From assembly GCF_010726245.1 (NCBI RefSeq), contig NZ_AP022561.1, positions 4,278,001-4,342,000 of the forward strand: DNA of 64,000 nucleotides, read 5' to 3'. Source of the DNA: Mycolicibacterium aichiense. Its GTDB lineage: Bacteria; Actinomycetota; Actinomycetes; Mycobacteriales; Mycobacteriaceae. The position numbers were made by a program, and so were the translations under genes. The notes below the pieces were generated by a model, which worked only from the letters and a program-made list of their open reading frames with translations, ran no database searches and had not been told where the DNA came from. Shown one piece after another: positions 27,114 through 36,117 of this stretch; position 1 is the stretch's first letter; each line of letters starts with the position of its first letter.

Positions 27114-27854
27114 ATGAAGCTCCGTCGCGAGCAATTGCCGGCCAAGGTCGAGGACGACGCGACCATGACTGCGCGGGTGCTCTCCCAGATCCTGGAGCGC
27201 AGCACTCGCGCCCAGGCCCCGGCGGTCCGCGCCTACGTCGCGCGACTGCGCCGATCCAATCCCGAAGCGACCCCGGCCGAGATCGTCACCAAGCTCGAGA
27301 AGCGCTATCTGGCCGCGGTGATGGCCAGCGGTGCCGCCGTCGGGTCGGCGGCGGCGTTCCCCGGCATCGGCACACTGGCGGCGTTGTCGGCGGTCGCCGG
27401 CGAGACGCTGGTTTTCCTGGAGGCCACCACGGTGTTCGTCCTGGCTGTCGCCGATGTCCACGGCATCCCGCTCGAGCAGCGCGAGCGTCGCCGCGCGCTG
27501 GTGCTGGCGGTGCTCGTCGGTGAAGAGAGCAGGGGCGCGATAGCCGACCTGATCGGCCCGAGCCGCACCAGCGGAGCGTGGCTTGCCGAGGGTGCGGACA
27601 TGCTGCCGTTGCCGGCGCTGGCCCAGTTGAACACCCGACTGATGCGCTACTTCGTCAAGCGGTTCACGCTCAAGCGCTCGGCGATGGCGTTCGGCAAGAT
27701 GCTTCCCGTCGGCATCGGTGCCGCGGTGGGTGGCGGTGGCAACCGAATGATGGGCAAAAAGATAGTGAACAATGCCCGCGCGGCGTTTGGGCCCGCGCCC
27801 AGCCGGTGGCCGGTGAGCCTGCACCTGCTGCCAGCGATCGAGCCGGGCGGATAA
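27114..27854 (+). CDS. Conserved membrane-associated protein, Rv1249c-like
   Basis: A 246-residue protein with an N-terminal helical, charged region and two hydrophobic stretches, [30 protein letters not shown] near residue 66 and a Gly-rich [20 protein letters not shown] near 200. It has no catalytic motif I can name. The ATG at 27114 has AGGAAGG 7 bases upstream. Its place directly before kgd is conserved in mycobacteria (Rv1249c), and it is divergent from the MFS gene, but a role in 2-oxoglutarate metabolism is unsupported. Confidence 0.75.
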
Positions 27855-28033
27855 CCGTTCGCCGACCTCCGACGACCGGTTGTCGCACCAGCTTCGGGCA
27901 TGGAGCTGACGTGCTTCGGGAACAACGGAGAAGCGATAGCCTTTTAGACGGCGGCCAGGTGTCGTGGCGCAAGAGTGGGGCAAACCGTCGAGCACGGCTT
28001 GCCGGGACGAAGGAATTGAGGCGAGGAACTGCC

Positions 28034-31774
<3,741 letters not shown>

Positions 31775-31853: not shown

Positions 31854-31870
31854 TTTGAAGCGAGTATGGA
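31854..31870 (+). promoter_or_regulatory. TTTG-N7-TATG motif before the two-component operon
   Basis: TTTG (31854-31857), seven bases, TATG (31865-31868), then GA. It shares CACATTTG with the copy at 34525. Half-sites 11 bases apart fit tandem binding of an OmpR/PhoB-type regulator. It lies 41 bases before the regulator's ATG, closer than at the small genes, and no -10 occurs at +33, so autorepression or a different geometry is likely here. Confidence 0.45.
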
Positions 31871-31911
31871 TTTCATGACAATTCATCATGTGTTTGGCCA
31901 CCATTGATGGC

Positions 31912-32697
31912 ATGGCTACGTCGGTAAATTCTCAGGCGCCCGGATCTCGTCCACGCCGGCAGGCCGTGCTCGGTCAATTGCCGCGGATCACCCGCGCGGA
32001 TGGAACGCCGATCCGCGTGCTGCTGGTCGACGACGAGCCGGCGCTGACCAATCTCGTGCAGATGGCTCTCAACTATGAGGGCTGGGACATCGAGGTGGCG
32101 CACAACGGTGAACAGGCCGCCCAGAAGTTCCGCGACGTCGAACCTGATTTGCTGGTCCTGGACATCATGCTGCCCGACACCGATGGCTTGCAGATCCTGA
32201 AGCAGATCCGCGAGAACGACCGGTATACCCCGACGCTGTTCCTCACCGCCAGGGACTCGGTGATGGATCGCGTCCAAGGACTGACCGCGGGAGCCGACGA
32301 CTATCTGACCAAGCCGTTCAGCTTGGAAGAACTCGTCGCACGGTTGCGGGGCCTGCTGCGAAGGGCCAACGCGATGACCGACCCCAGCGAGGAAACCCTC
32401 AAAGTGGGTGACCTGGTTCTCTCAGGCCCTAGCAGGGAGGTAACCCGGGGCGGTGAGCGAATCACGTTGACCTCGACCGAGTTCGAGTTGTTGCGCTACA
32501 TGATGCGCAACGCCCGGCGCGCCGTCACCCGCGCGGAGATTCTGGACCGGGTGTGGAACTACAACTTCGGCGGTCGCTCGAGCATCGTCGACCTCTACAT
32601 CTCCTATCTGCGCCGCAAGATCGACGACGGACGGAAGCCGATGATTCAGACCGTGCGCGGGGTCGGCTACATGTTGCGCCCGCCCGAGGAGCAATGA
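31912..32697 (+). CDS. OmpR/PhoB-family response regulator, TrcR-like
   Basis: A 261-residue regulator. The receiver domain (residues about 33-150) has the acidic pair Asp40-Asp41, phospho-acceptor Asp84 in LVLDIMLPD and Lys134 in LTKPF. The C-terminal winged helix has STEFELLRYMMRNARRAVTR and the terminal VRGVGYMLR. The N-terminal extension with RRQAVLGQLPRITRADGTP resembles TrcR by recollection. ATG 31912 is chosen because SVNSQAPGSR-type starts are usual in this group; ATG 31888 is in frame. It overlaps the kinase gene by 4 bases. The same motif precedes this gene and three downstream small genes, so it may regulate both. Confidence 0.92.
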   Translation: MATSVNSQAPGSRPRRQAVLGQLPRITRADGTPIRVLLVDDEPALTNLVQMALNYEGWDIEVAHNGEQAAQKFRDVEPDLLVLDIMLPDTDGLQILKQIRENDRYTPTLFLTARDSVMDRVQGLTAGADDYLTKPFSLEELVARLRGLLRRANAMTDPSEETLKVGDLVLSGPSREVTRGGERITLTSTEFELLRYMMRNARRAVTRAEILDRVWNYNFGGRSSIVDLYISYLRRKIDDGRKPMIQTVRGVGYMLRPPEEQ

Positions 32698-34205
32698 CCG
32701 CTTCGAAACGGTGGTGGAGGCGTCGCTCCCTGCGACGCCAGCTCGCCATCGGAGTGTCCTCCATCGTCAGCGTCGCCTTGATCGTGGTCGGCACGGTGGC
32801 GGTGATCAGTCTGCGCGACGAGGCGATTCGCCTCAGCGACACCCAGGTGGCGAATTCTCTTGCGGCGTTCTCCTATGCCTATGCCAAGTGGGACGCCCAG
32901 CGCACCATCGCCCCCGACGCGACCGGCATGCCGATGGGACGCGCGAGCGCCTTCCAAAACCAGGCGCCGGGCACAGCGATCGCGGTGGTTCGTGACGGCG
33001 CCGTGGTCTACTCCAATGTGTTTGCCGACGGCGCACAACTACCGGCGCCGGCCGATGCCCAGCGCGCCATGGAAGCCGTGAATTGGGCTGACAGCGGGCC
33101 GCGTACCGTCCAACTCGGTGAACTCGGTCCGTATCGGGCGGACAGCCGGGACGTCGGTGCCGGAGAGCGGCTGGTGGCAGCCGTTTCCTTGCGACCGGCC
33201 GAGAAGACGGTGGCGCACGAGACGCTCATCGTCGTCATTCTTGTCGTGCTGGCGCTGTTGGCCACCGGAATCGGCACGGTGTGGACGGTCAGTCACGCGC
33301 TCAAGCCTCTGCGACGCATCGCCGCGGTTGCCGGCGAGGTAGCGACGCTGCGGCTGGATGGAACAGAGACTCGCATCACTGCGCGTGTCGATGAATCCGA
33401 CACCGACCCGGAATCCGATGTCGGAGTCGTCGGACACGCCTTGAACAGGCTGCTCATCAACGTCGACTCCGCACTCGCAGACCTGGCTGCCTCCGACCGG
33501 CGTATGCGGCAGTTCCTGGCTGATGCCAGCCACGAGTTGCGGACCCCGCTGGCCTCGATCCTCGGTTATGCGGAGCTGACCCGGCAGGACAGCGCGACGC
33601 TGCCGGAGACCACGGAGTACGCCCTGGCGCGCATCGAGGCCGAGTCCCGCCGGATGTCCGTACTGGTCGCCGACCTGCTACTGCTGTCTCGCCTCGAGGA
33701 ACGAAATGATCTCGATATCGAGGACGTCGAGTTGTGTGACCTGGTGGCCGATGCGGTGAACGACGCCGCGGTGAGTGCGCCCGATCATCACTTCCACCTC
33801 GAGCTCCCCGATCACCAGGTACGGATCCGCGGCGACAGAGCACGCCTACACCAGGTACTGGCCAACCTGCTGGCCAACGCCCGCATCCATACTCCGGCCG
33901 GCGTCAATGTCACGGCGGCGGTCGGCATCGCACCCGGTGACCCGGCCACGGTGAAGATGGTCGTCAGTGACGACGGGCCCGGCATTCCCCCCGAGGTCAT
34001 ACCCAATCTCTTCGATCGATTCGTCCGCGCCGACAAAGCTCGCGCACGTGAGTCTGGTTCCAGCGGTTTGGGTTTGGCGATCGTGCGCTCCATCGTTCAG
34101 GCCCACGGGGGAACCGTGGAGGTGGAGTCAAAACCGGGGAACACCCGATTCACAGTTTCGATACCTCTGCACTCACCGAGTCCTCAAGATTTGAACTTCC
34201 TATGA
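32694..34205 (+). CDS. Membrane sensor histidine kinase, TrcS-like
   Basis: A 503-residue kinase. TM1 is at about residues 18-40, the extracytoplasmic sensor at about 41-176, TM2 at about 177-203, and a HAMP region follows. The dimerisation domain carries the phospho-acceptor His280 in DASHELRTPLASI. The ATP-binding domain has NLLANARIHTP (N box), DDGPGIPP (G1) and SSGLGLAIV (G2). It pairs with the upstream regulator (ATGA overlap). The sensor domain has no recognised ligand fold. The stop codon lies within a TTTG-N7-TATGAG motif that starts the next transcription unit. Confidence 0.93.
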   Translation: MTASKRWWRRRSLRRQLAIGVSSIVSVALIVVGTVAVISLRDEAIRLSDTQVANSLAAFSYAYAKWDAQRTIAPDATGMPMGRASAFQNQAPGTAIAVVRDGAVVYSNVFADGAQLPAPADAQRAMEAVNWADSGPRTVQLGELGPYRADSRDVGAGERLVAAVSLRPAEKTVAHETLIVVILVVLALLATGIGTVWTVSHALKPLRRIAAVAGEVATLRLDGTETRITARVDESDTDPESDVGVVGHALNRLLINVDSALADLAASDRRMRQFLADASHELRTPLASILGYAELTRQDSATLPETTEYALARIEAESRRMSVLVADLLLLSRLEERNDLDIEDVELCDLVADAVNDAAVSAPDHHFHLELPDHQVRIRGDRARLHQVLANLLANARIHTPAGVNVTAAVGIAPGDPATVKMVVSDDGPGIPPEVIPNLFDRFVRADKARARESGSSGLGLAIVRSIVQAHGGTVEVESKPGNTRFTVSIPLHSPSPQDLNFL

Positions 34206-34239
34206 GCTGGATGGCAGGTTGGCCAGCCGTTTCCAGAAT
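34190..34239 (+). promoter_or_regulatory. Motif copy A: TTTG-N7-TATGAG with -10 CAGAAT
   Basis: TTTG at 34190-34193, TATGAG at 34201-34206 overlapping the kinase TGA, and CAGAAT at 34234-34239, exactly 33 bases after the TATG, as in copies B and C. GTGGGACG follows 45 bases after the TATG, as in copy B. The weaker hexamer (C in place of T) fits decay of the associated pseudogene. Confidence 0.45.
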
Positions 34240-34350
34240 CGAGATGTGGGACGGCAAGGCGGAAACCGCTCGCGGACAGGCTGTCAGCCGATGCGCTGGC
34301 CGCGTAGATCCCACCCGGCCTTCGGGACGACGTGAGGGATTGCCCTGATT

Positions 34351-34500
34351 ATGACGTTGTCCCATCTGAGCTTTCTGATCGCCGGCTCCACCGCCGCCGC
34401 GATTACGGCCGGGCCGTAGGCATCGGCCGATCCTGGTAAGCCGGTCTCGATCAACTGAATCCAATGGTCGCCCGACCTCCTCATATCGTCGCCTGAAGGC
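34351..34500 (+). pseudogene. Decayed paralogue of the small secreted Cys protein
   Basis: From ATG 34351 the frame reads a signal-peptide-like MTLSHLSFLIAGSTAAAI followed by TAGP and then TAG (34417-34419) exactly where the mature protein should begin. It aligns with the signal peptide of the gene at 34684 (LSPFIIAGAAAAAIAAAP), and the DNA segment GCCGCCGCGATT is identical. After a second stop (TGA, 34456-34458) IQWSP recalls MQWGF of the intact protein. The Cys-containing middle is gone. The distance of about 145 bases from its own motif copy matches the intact neighbour. Confidence 0.5.
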
Positions 34501-34524
34501 TTCAGACCGCAAGCGCTTCTCACA

Positions 34525-34574
34525 TTTGTTTCCGCTATGAGTTGAATGAGCAAGCGGCCGAAACCTTCTAGGCT
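34525..34574 (+). promoter_or_regulatory. Motif copy B: TTTG-N7-TATGAG with -10 TAGGCT
   Basis: TTTG at 34525-34528, TATGAG at 34536-34541, -10 TAGGCT at 34569-34574, 33 bases after the TATG. This places the half-sites near -56 and -45, the usual position for an OmpR-type activator. No -35 hexamer at standard spacing is seen. It serves the gene at 34684. Confidence 0.5.
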
Positions 34575-34683
34575 AGAGGCGTGGGACGACGAGCGGAATC
34601 GACTACAGAACAACGGAGTTCGTTGACGCAGCCCGCCGCTCGAATTCAGCCCAGAACGAGTACAACCGATGAAAGGAATCGAG

Positions 34684-34929
34684 ATGACCACTACCTTGCG
34701 CCGCCTGAGCCCGTTCATCATCGCCGGGGCCGCTGCCGCCGCGATTGCGGCCGCACCAGCCGCTCAGGCGTCTACCAGTGGTTCACCAGAGTGTCGTGAG
34801 TCCACCGGAACGTCGGTGTGCCAGAAGCAGGGGCACGCTTCGATCGTGACGACTCCACGCGACTCTGGAATGCAGTGGGGGTTCGGCAGCCAAGCCGGTC
34901 CCCTCGCCCCGATCTGGGCGCTCGGATAG
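34684..34929 (+). CDS. Small secreted Cys-pair protein, WALG family member 1
   Basis: An 81-residue exported protein. Residues 1-29 form a signal peptide ending AAQAS, leaving a mature peptide of about 52 residues. It has two Cys eight residues apart (C-x8-C), then QKQGHASI and a C-terminal IWALG. Its neighbour at 35167 has the same layout: MTT start, C-x8-C, CQ-x-QGHASI, an FG segment and WALG end, so the two are paralogues. ATG 34684 is preceded by AAAGGAATCGAG, matched by AAAGGAACCACCG in the paralogue; ATG 34669 is in frame but its site is worse. I know no function. A disulfide-bonded secreted peptide is inferred. Confidence 0.7.
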   Translation: MTTTLRRLSPFIIAGAAAAAIAAAPAAQASTSGSPECRESTGTSVCQKQGHASIVTTPRDSGMQWGFGSQAGPLAPIWALG

Positions 34930-35024
34930 CAGCCCTGCGCTAGATCGACCAAGGCCGCGGCGGATCCTCCTTCTGGAGGCTTCCCCGTGGCCTTTCGGCG
35001 TTCAGATCCGTTGCAGCACAGAAG

Positions 35025-35074
35025 TTTGCGTTCGATATGAGTCACGTGAAACGGCGCGCACACCGGCTTAACCT
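35025..35074 (+). promoter_or_regulatory. Motif copy C: TTTG-N7-TATGAG with -10 TAACCT
   Basis: TTTG at 35025-35028, TATGAG at 35036-35041, -10 TAACCT at 35069-35074, again exactly 33 bases after the TATG. It serves the gene at 35167. The seven spacer bases and most flanking sequence differ from copies A and B, so the shared positions appear selected. Confidence 0.5.
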
Positions 35075-35166
35075 GGATGCATAGCGAAGTTCACTGTCAA
35101 ACAGACTGTGCGACAGCGACTTCCGAATGCATGGCCTGTCTAAGGCCTCGCGGAAAGGAACCACCG

Positions 35167-35415
35167 ATGACCACCAGACTCCAGGGCGCTATCGCGCCGC
35201 TCATTCTCGCGGGCGTCACCGCGGCGACCGTGGCTTTGGCACCAGTCGCCGGGGCGGCATCGAATACGGCGACATGCCGCGACAATGGCGGCGCATCACT
35301 CTGCCAGAGGCAGGGCCACGCGTCCATCAAAGTCGACAAGCCGTCCCGGGCGCCGCAGCCCTTCGGGTTCAACATCGGTTTCGGACCGATCGACCCAATG
35401 TGGGCCTTGGGTTGA
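35167..35415 (+). CDS. Small secreted Cys-pair protein, WALG family member 2
   Basis: An 82-residue exported protein paralogous to the gene at 34684. The signal peptide (about residues 1-31, ending VAGAAS) is followed by C-RDNGGASL-C, QRQGHASI, a Pro-rich stretch with PFGFNIGFG and the terminal MWALG. Conservation is concentrated in the Cys pair, QGHASI and the last residues, suggesting these carry the function. It has its own motif and -10, so each paralogue is a separate transcription unit. Function unknown. Confidence 0.7.
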   Translation: MTTRLQGAIAPLILAGVTAATVALAPVAGAASNTATCRDNGGASLCQRQGHASIKVDKPSRAPQPFGFNIGFGPIDPMWALG

Positions 35416-35742: not shown

Positions 35743-36117
35743 TCAGAAGCCGAAGTTGTTCAGCAAGTCCAGCGGGATCGGCGAGTTGCCATTCGCCAGA
35801 TCCTGCATGGCGCGGGGGCAGAAGTAGGACACAGCCAGGCCCGTGAACATGGTGGCCGCGCCCAGCGGACGGCCCATCCGGTCAGCGACGGTGGAGGCGA
35901 TGTCGGCGGTGTTCTGGCTGCGGTCCGCCAGCAGCGGGCAGATCGACTGCCCCATCTCGACGGCCTGCGCGGGGTCCATCCCGGTGATCCCGGCATTGCC
36001 CAACGCAGCCAAAAAGTCGTCGGTGGTGGTGTCCGCCTGCGCGGGCGCCGCCAGCGCGACGGCGCCGGCGATCAGTCCGGCAACCGCCCCGACGCTGGCC
36101 ATACGGCGAAATGTCAT
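35743..36117 (-). CDS. DUF732-family secreted protein
   Basis: A 124-residue exported protein. A signal peptide ends APAQA near residue 29; the mature part has DDFLAALGNAGITG, GQSICPLL and YFCPRAM, the layout of the mycobacterial DUF732 family, in which the two Cys form a disulfide in a small helical domain. The family is common among secreted mycobacterial proteins and its role is unknown. It faces the small secreted Cys proteins across a 327-base gap, but its promoter lacks a full TTTG-N7-TATG motif. Confidence 0.85.
   Translation of the reverse strand: MTFRRMASVGAVAGLIAGAVALAAPAQADTTTDDFLAALGNAGITGMDPAQAVEMGQSICPLLADRSQNTADIASTVADRMGRPLGAATMFTGLAVSYFCPRAMQDLANGNSPIPLDLLNNFGF

Follow-up and report, generated by a model that had tools for sequence, protein, structure and literature searches.

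The window analyzed here is a 64 kb stretch of contig NZ_AP022561.1 of Mycolicibacterium aichiense, in which a response regulator and a sensor kinase of the TrcRS type are followed by genes for small secreted proteins with a cysteine pair, and in which a short promoter box is repeated ahead of these genes (Table 1). Source-named TrcR relatives are ~75–80% identical to the window regulator, and the relatives of the kinase include source-named TrcS proteins, these names being annotations that most of the listed regulator and kinase matches do not carry. Judged by these relatives, the pair is a TrcRS-type two-component system. The start of trcS overlaps the stop of trcR, and the trcR ATG lies 7 bases past its −10-like hexamer (picked by eye), so that the trcR mRNA is likely leaderless.

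Table 1. Positions of the TrcRS-type locus and its associated features within the 64 kb window
Feature	Position	Strand	Remarks
Putative TrcR box 1, trcR promoter	31854..31868	+	−35-like ATGACA 31875-31880; −10-like CACCAT 31899-31904
trcR-type response regulator, OmpR/PhoB class, 261 residues	31912..32697	+	Pfam Response_reg and Trans_reg_C; source-named TrcR relatives
trcS-type sensor histidine kinase, 503 residues	32694..34205	+	Pfam HisKA and HATPase_c; source-named TrcS relatives
Putative box 2, overlaps kinase stop, fronts decayed copy	34190..34204	+	−10-like CAGAAT 34234-34239
Relic of third small secreted protein gene	34351..34419	+	22 signal-peptide-like codons, then in-frame TAG
Putative box 3, upstream of small secreted protein 1	34525..34539	+	ATGA 34546-34549; −10-like TAGGCT 34569-34574
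Small secreted protein 1, 81 residues	34684..34929	+	C-x8-C, QGHASI, WALG; no Pfam/NCBIfam family above cut-off
Putative box 4, upstream of small secreted protein 2	35025..35039	+	GTGA 35046-35049; −10-like TAACCT 35069-35074
Small secreted protein 2, 82 residues	35167..35415	+	C-x8-C, QGHASI, WALG; no Pfam/NCBIfam family above cut-off

The two small proteins have the lengths and the shared motifs that a preliminary description of this DNA had given them, and both appear to be exported, as judged by eye from their signal-peptide-like starts. Their best match among curated Pfam and NCBIfam families is DUF7155, at E 0.069 and 13.8 bits against a cut-off of 27, and their relative L003 likewise matches no curated family. 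No relatives were found in phages and viral contigs, the small-protein profile matched solved structures at best with E 0.058, and the AlphaFold model of small protein 1 has a mean predicted local distance difference test (pLDDT) score of 51, which is too low for use. The site at 34190 does overlap the kinase stop, as the preliminary description had it, but the same box also fronts a decayed third copy that had been missed; this relic matches the small proteins at E 0.007 with one TAG, and its DNA alignment scores 45, compared with at most 27 in 200 shuffles. The two intact genes and the relic are paralogues, and since the relic stands behind a box of its own, the array would once have been trcR–trcS followed by three box-driven small genes, one of which is now decayed.

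A Repeated Promoter Box in the Window and across the Genome

The four occurrences of TTTG-N7-TATG within 3.2 kb noted in the preliminary description are exactly the matches in the window, all on the forward strand, where 0.24 would be expected in 64 kb and none of 100 shuffles reaches four. The last three read TATGAG and, again as described, each has a −10-like hexamer (CAGAAT, TAGGCT and TAACCT, respectively) beginning exactly 33 bases from the first base of TATG; at the trcR promoter, the likeliest hexamer by eye lies one base farther.

Scanning the whole genome (5,925,482 bases) with the bare box returns 12 matches, a third of them in these 3.2 kb. The refined 25-base pattern TWTG-N7-TATGA-N5-RTGA is matched exactly at four sites, each ahead of a gene for a small secreted protein, namely, the two small genes of the window, the small gene of a second trcRS locus (see below) and an unlinked, leaderless gene for a glycine-rich secreted protein with SYTGGSTSN repeats (G000:C1:1424931-1424955 (−), L181). 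The last of these is the only exact fit outside the two trcRS loci, the other bare-box sites having been viewed by eye only. Allowing one mismatch adds both trcR promoters, the relic box and one unexplained site, and the reversed pattern gives two in all. The unexplained site, G000:C1:557429-557453 (−), has no known target.

We extended the refined pattern to 40 more TrcS-bearing genomes and obtained 45 exact matches in 24 of them; the reversed pattern gave none. Of these 45, 30 fall inside the trcRS regions fetched for the genus-wide comparison below, which were the source of the pattern, and hence are not independent. Thirteen of the 15 outside sites were read: seven precede the glycine-rich secreted family, which thus recurs together with its box, four precede other small secreted proteins, and for two the filter applied gave no such gene, with several of the outside sites being orthologous to one another.

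Conservation of the Box across the Genus

Our survey of 396 genomes of the genus gave TrcS matches (cut-off E 1e-30) in 281 and small-protein matches (cut-off E 1e-8) in 159. Among the best 25 small-protein rows (E <1e-21), 22 share a contig with a listed TrcS match that is at most ~5 kb away; in two, the genome is fragmented and the match falls on a different contig, and for one no TrcS position is listed. Sixty regions were then taken, 40 in the order of the TrcS ranking and 20 chosen lower in the list, which provided 59 regions with a regulator (window included) and 58 testable trcR upstream stretches, one region being too short. The counts from these regions allow up to one mismatch to TTTG-N7-TATG unless given as exact; letter-shuffled windows and permuted-letter decoys served as their controls, and the reversed pattern served as the control for the genome scans.

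In these regions, the box precedes 42 of 43 distinct C-x8-C/QGHASI small genes (27 exact), 46 of 58 trcR genes (10 exact) and 42 of 44 SulP transporter genes divergent from trcR (20 exact). For the same three classes, letter-shuffled windows give means of 1.9, 2.6 and 4.3 when one mismatch is allowed (exact matches: 0.2 at most), while permuted-letter decoys average 2.1, 3.9 and 3.4 at one mismatch. The decoy maxima reach 15, 26 and 25 at one mismatch and 2, 9 and 3 for exact matches. The cysteine pair itself is kept in 41 of the 43 small proteins. The preliminary description had proposed searching for such proteins beside the regulator, with the motif upstream, and this is where they are found; the box is not lost from close homologous loci but is retained at the small genes, and at most trcR genes, throughout the genus.

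At the small genes, the spacing is kept as well. Exact boxes at small genes have a spacer of 7 in 27 of 28 cases (and of 5 once), and exact boxes at SulP genes occur only at spacer 7 (20 cases). The aligned small-gene promoters read A-T[T/A]TG-N7-TATGA-N5-[G/A]TGAC, with T-A-N3-T following at a distance of 29 bases from TATG in 40 of the 43 rows of a table in which L153 stands twice and L143, with two mismatches, is left out. NANNNT at this distance is present in 40 of 43 small-gene rows and 41 of 58 trcR rows, and TGA occupies offset 7 in 36 of 43 small-gene and 47 of 58 trcR rows. The OmpR/PhoB-type activator geometry suggested in the preliminary description is thus recovered across the genus, with half-sites 11 bases apart, just upstream of the −35 element and at a fixed distance to the −10 element.

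The same box also precedes a second, unrelated secreted family. In 21 regions (among L121-L152), the gene right behind trcS encodes a secreted protein of ~100 residues with YTTVYVDL near its end, for which Pfam returns only a sub-threshold PepSY_2 match. Here the box, as TWTG-N7-TATG with up to one mismatch, is present in 21 of 21 cases and exact in 18 (decoys: mean 0.21, maximum 18; such high decoy maxima probably arise from permutations identical or almost identical to the box), and TA-N2-CT follows exactly 29 bases after TATG in 20 of 21, the remaining locus, L147, having it at a neighboring exact box.

These data bear on two alternative explanations of the box. As the small genes of the window and the relic are paralogues, the repeats could in principle be a functionless leftover of duplicated tandem promoters, but we find this barely credible, given that genes unrelated to them (trcR, SulP, the ~100-residue and the glycine-rich secreted families) have this box in front of them as well and that the seven bases between the half-sites vary among loci. 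Alternatively, TrcR could bind the box but repress, or only tune, the genes behind it, in line with its reported repression of Rv1057 in Mycobacterium tuberculosis (PMC11895460) and with the closeness of the box to the −35 element. We consider this very unlikely, since the box lies upstream of the −35 element at a fixed distance, and not over the −10 element or the start, as for an activator.

SulP Transporters and a Probable Link to CO2

In 44 of the 59 regions, SulP and trcR are arranged divergently, and other genomes have the SulP gene at other places. In M. aichiense, the corresponding gene next to the second trcRS copy carries Sulfate_transp and Pro_CA domains above cut-off (with STAS below cut-off), that is, a SulP transporter fused to a β-carbonic anhydrase, and its box is of the TATG form. 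We followed SulP genes beyond the trcRS regions in two sets of genomes. In the first, of 12 genomes, eight have SulP (10 loci), with an exact box at five loci, the TATG form at one and none at four, two of the latter being in genomes without a TrcS match. The second comprises 40 genomes (20 with and 20 without a TrcS match), of which 25 have SulP, at 40 loci. Here, the TrcS-bearing genomes contain 23 SulP genes with an identity of 65% or more; 20 of them have an exact box in the usual place, two have one mismatch and one is doubtful, and 20 are far from trcS or on other contigs, with three beside it. At five SulP loci of 64–70% identity in TrcS-lacking genomes, there is one exact box, one decayed box (G365) and three cases without (G314, G344 and G363, the last with a one-mismatch site in another setting). 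An exact match at −408 in G533 (L258) was judged to be due to chance and left out of the counts.

SulP paralogues of ~60% identity, which make up the other 12 loci of the second set, carry a different site. Upstream of these genes, TTTGA-N6-[A/C/G]ATGA is found in 12 of 12 loci (L249-L253, L262-L268), two of them in TrcS-lacking genomes. These sites would count by the one-mismatch rule, but we did not accept them as TrcR boxes; they are present with or without TrcS.

This distribution bears on whether the box is instead recognized by a different regulator, such as PhoP or MprA, or by a sigma factor using an extended promoter, with trcRS being merely a target. The box does precede trcR itself, so that trcRS could be downstream, and the closest solved relative of the window TrcR is PhoP. 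Other OmpR-class regulators also use an 11-base half-site spacing. The SulP box is moreover kept in G309, a genome in which the TrcS search (E 1e-30) gave no match, and the ~60%-identity paralogues keep a site one mismatch from the box irrespective of TrcS. On the other hand, the box genes cluster around trcRS in many lineages, the window unit lies at a different place from its nearest relatives with the small genes still in tow, and in TrcS-lacking genomes three of the five SulP loci are without such a box and one is decayed. PhoP in particular binds TCACAGC-N4-TCACAGC, which is unlike the present box. We therefore regard control by another regulator as unlikely, although it is the stronger of the competing accounts of what binds and what the box does.

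In M. tuberculosis, trcR is reported to be induced 13-fold and trcS fourfold at 5% compared with 0.5% CO2 (pH 7.0), and CanC (Rv3273) to be a carbonic anhydrase (PMC11895460). Taken together with the SulP link, this published induction makes it a reasonable inference that the TrcRS signal is probably tied to CO2 or bicarbonate.

Origin of the Window Unit and Its Neighborhood

The second trcRS pair lies ~690 kb from the window copy, and the winged-helix parts of the two TrcR proteins differ at 8 of 72 positions. In a tree of 33 kinases, the window TrcS groups with its relative from G565 (97%), and next with the kinases from G556, G541 and G447 (support 99/96), whereas the other copy of its own genome falls elsewhere. 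Because the tree separates the two copies, the window unit is not a recent copy of the resident locus but either an old duplicate or an acquired module. The two loci also differ in content: the window pair adjoins small genes and no SulP gene, and the second locus (G000:C1:3612500-3629500, L112), which adjoins hrcA/dnaJ-like genes (by eye), has the divergent SulP-carbonic anhydrase gene with a box-bearing small secreted gene just behind it.

The window pair is flanked by a kgd-like gene (by eye) on one side and by DUF732 and short-chain dehydrogenase genes on the other. The kgd-like open reading frame (27578-31774, +), directly upstream of the trcR promoter, reads by eye as 2-oxoglutarate decarboxylase/dehydrogenase, which would place a CO2-releasing enzyme beside trcR, perhaps by coincidence. 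The secreted-looking DUF732 protein gene (35743-36117, −) adjoins the small genes on the opposite strand. A kdp neighborhood, seen in part of the genus and not defining, is absent at the window trcRS, as it is in other clades (by eye).

The predicted model of TrcS has a mean pLDDT of 86. The rows listed by a fold search with this model are taken up by the kinase core (residues 265-495), and none among them identifies the sensor domain (~70-165, alpha/beta), which was not folded alone.

Proposed Mechanism

Taking these observations together, we consider it probable that a TrcRS-type locus travels with its own box-driven targets, and that phosphorylated TrcR binds the box and activates them in response to a CO2-linked signal. 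Sequence and conservation support the box, its geometry, the gene linkage and the family identities, whereas we infer TrcR as the binder, the activation, and the CO2 signal. Phosphorylated TrcR would bind A-T[T/A]TG-N7-TATGA as a head-to-tail dimer on two half-sites 11 bases apart. With 6 bases separating the box from a downstream −35-like [A/G]TGA(C), and the −10-like hexamer 29–30 bases after TATG, this would be the PhoB/OmpR activator geometry. TrcR would thereby switch on its own gene and the flanking small secreted Cys-pair proteins, as well as the unlinked glycine-rich secreted gene and the SulP gene, which lies beside the second trcRS locus in M. aichiense, there fused to the β-carbonic anhydrase, or elsewhere in relatives. 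The preliminary description had envisaged a self-contained unit controlling a secreted peptide family; the regulon part of this reading is supported by the sequence comparisons, but the unit is not fully self-contained, since there are a second trcRS locus and an unlinked box-bearing gene.

The following points weigh against this mechanism. First, the reversed bare box also has 12 genome matches, so that it is the cluster and its context that are unusual, and not the eight letters, which alone are not specific genome-wide; further, 16 of the 40 TrcS-bearing genomes have no exact match to the refined pattern. The trcR upstream stretches also contain exact matches with spacers of 6 (9), 12 (1) and 13 (4), which makes the trcR count the weakest of the three target classes, and 12 of the 58 trcR upstream stretches lack a box at up to one mismatch, with some of the other 46 being potentially due to chance. 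Eight distant small-protein relatives (L012-L016, L018, L019 and L023), whose distance from trcRS was not checked, have no box. With regard to SulP, the exact box in G309 and the ~60%-identity paralogues discussed above both count here, the latter as a sign that the one-mismatch rule is lenient, and the TrcS-lacking comparison set is small. For desA3, a published TrcR/CO2 target, no exact box was found within 1500 bases upstream at 30 desaturase loci in seven genomes (30 read out of 33 matches listed, with the identity of desA3 among them not settled). Finally, the regions were chosen by similarity to the window kinase and are mutually related: clustering the 59 regulators leaves 18 groups at 90% identity and just four at 85%, such that far fewer than 59 cases are independent.

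As to the role of the small secreted proteins, our guess is that they act in the cell envelope, possibly back on TrcS. In an extended form of this idea, TrcRS would be a CO2/bicarbonate sensor whose main, fast-evolving outputs are the small secreted Cys-pair proteins, feeding back on the outer domain of TrcS in an autocrine manner, alongside the SulP bicarbonate transporter. We put this forward only tentatively, as a doubtful though not far-fetched possibility. If it were true, the unrelated secreted families that follow trcS in one clade or another would serve as interchangeable ligands or modulators.

Comparison with Known Systems

The sensing and targets of TrcRS are described as little known, with Rv1057 being the only defined regulon member in M. 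tuberculosis and with desA3, ppe32, Rv0458 and Rv3230c being TrcR targets by chromatin immunoprecipitation sequencing (ChIP-seq) that follow CO2 (PMC11895460). A box that can be read from sequence, with conserved candidate targets (trcR, SulP and the small secreted proteins), would make both the regulon and the suggested CO2 signal testable in harmless laboratory species, and would open a way into several small secreted protein families that lack annotation. TrcR of M. tuberculosis is reported to regulate its own gene.

The preliminary description did not recognize the locus as a described system. This needs correction insofar as the pair is the known TrcRS, although in the available portions of the literature searched we found no TrcR box of this form, secreted-peptide regulon or SulP link (a published TrcR ChIP-seq motif may exist); with such corrections, the earlier reading is supported.

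The window pair resembles TrcRS (Rv1033c/Rv1032c) of M. tuberculosis by TrcR/TrcS homology, as based on source names, but adjoins kgd rather than kdp. In other genomes in which TrcRS stands beside kdp-like genes (by eye), trcR has a box of the same form, exact in L158 and L163 and with one mismatch in L157. The gene beside the second trcRS copy, which is outside the window, is like the SulP-carbonic anhydrase fusions of the CanC/Rv3273 type. With PhoP of M. tuberculosis and PhoB of Escherichia coli, the system shares two half-sites 11 bases apart next to the −35 element, but the letters of their half-sites differ from those of the TrcR box. In summary, the signalling pair is a known one, to which the present comparison would add a box, a promoter geometry and a secreted-protein regulon that appear to be undescribed in the literature searched.

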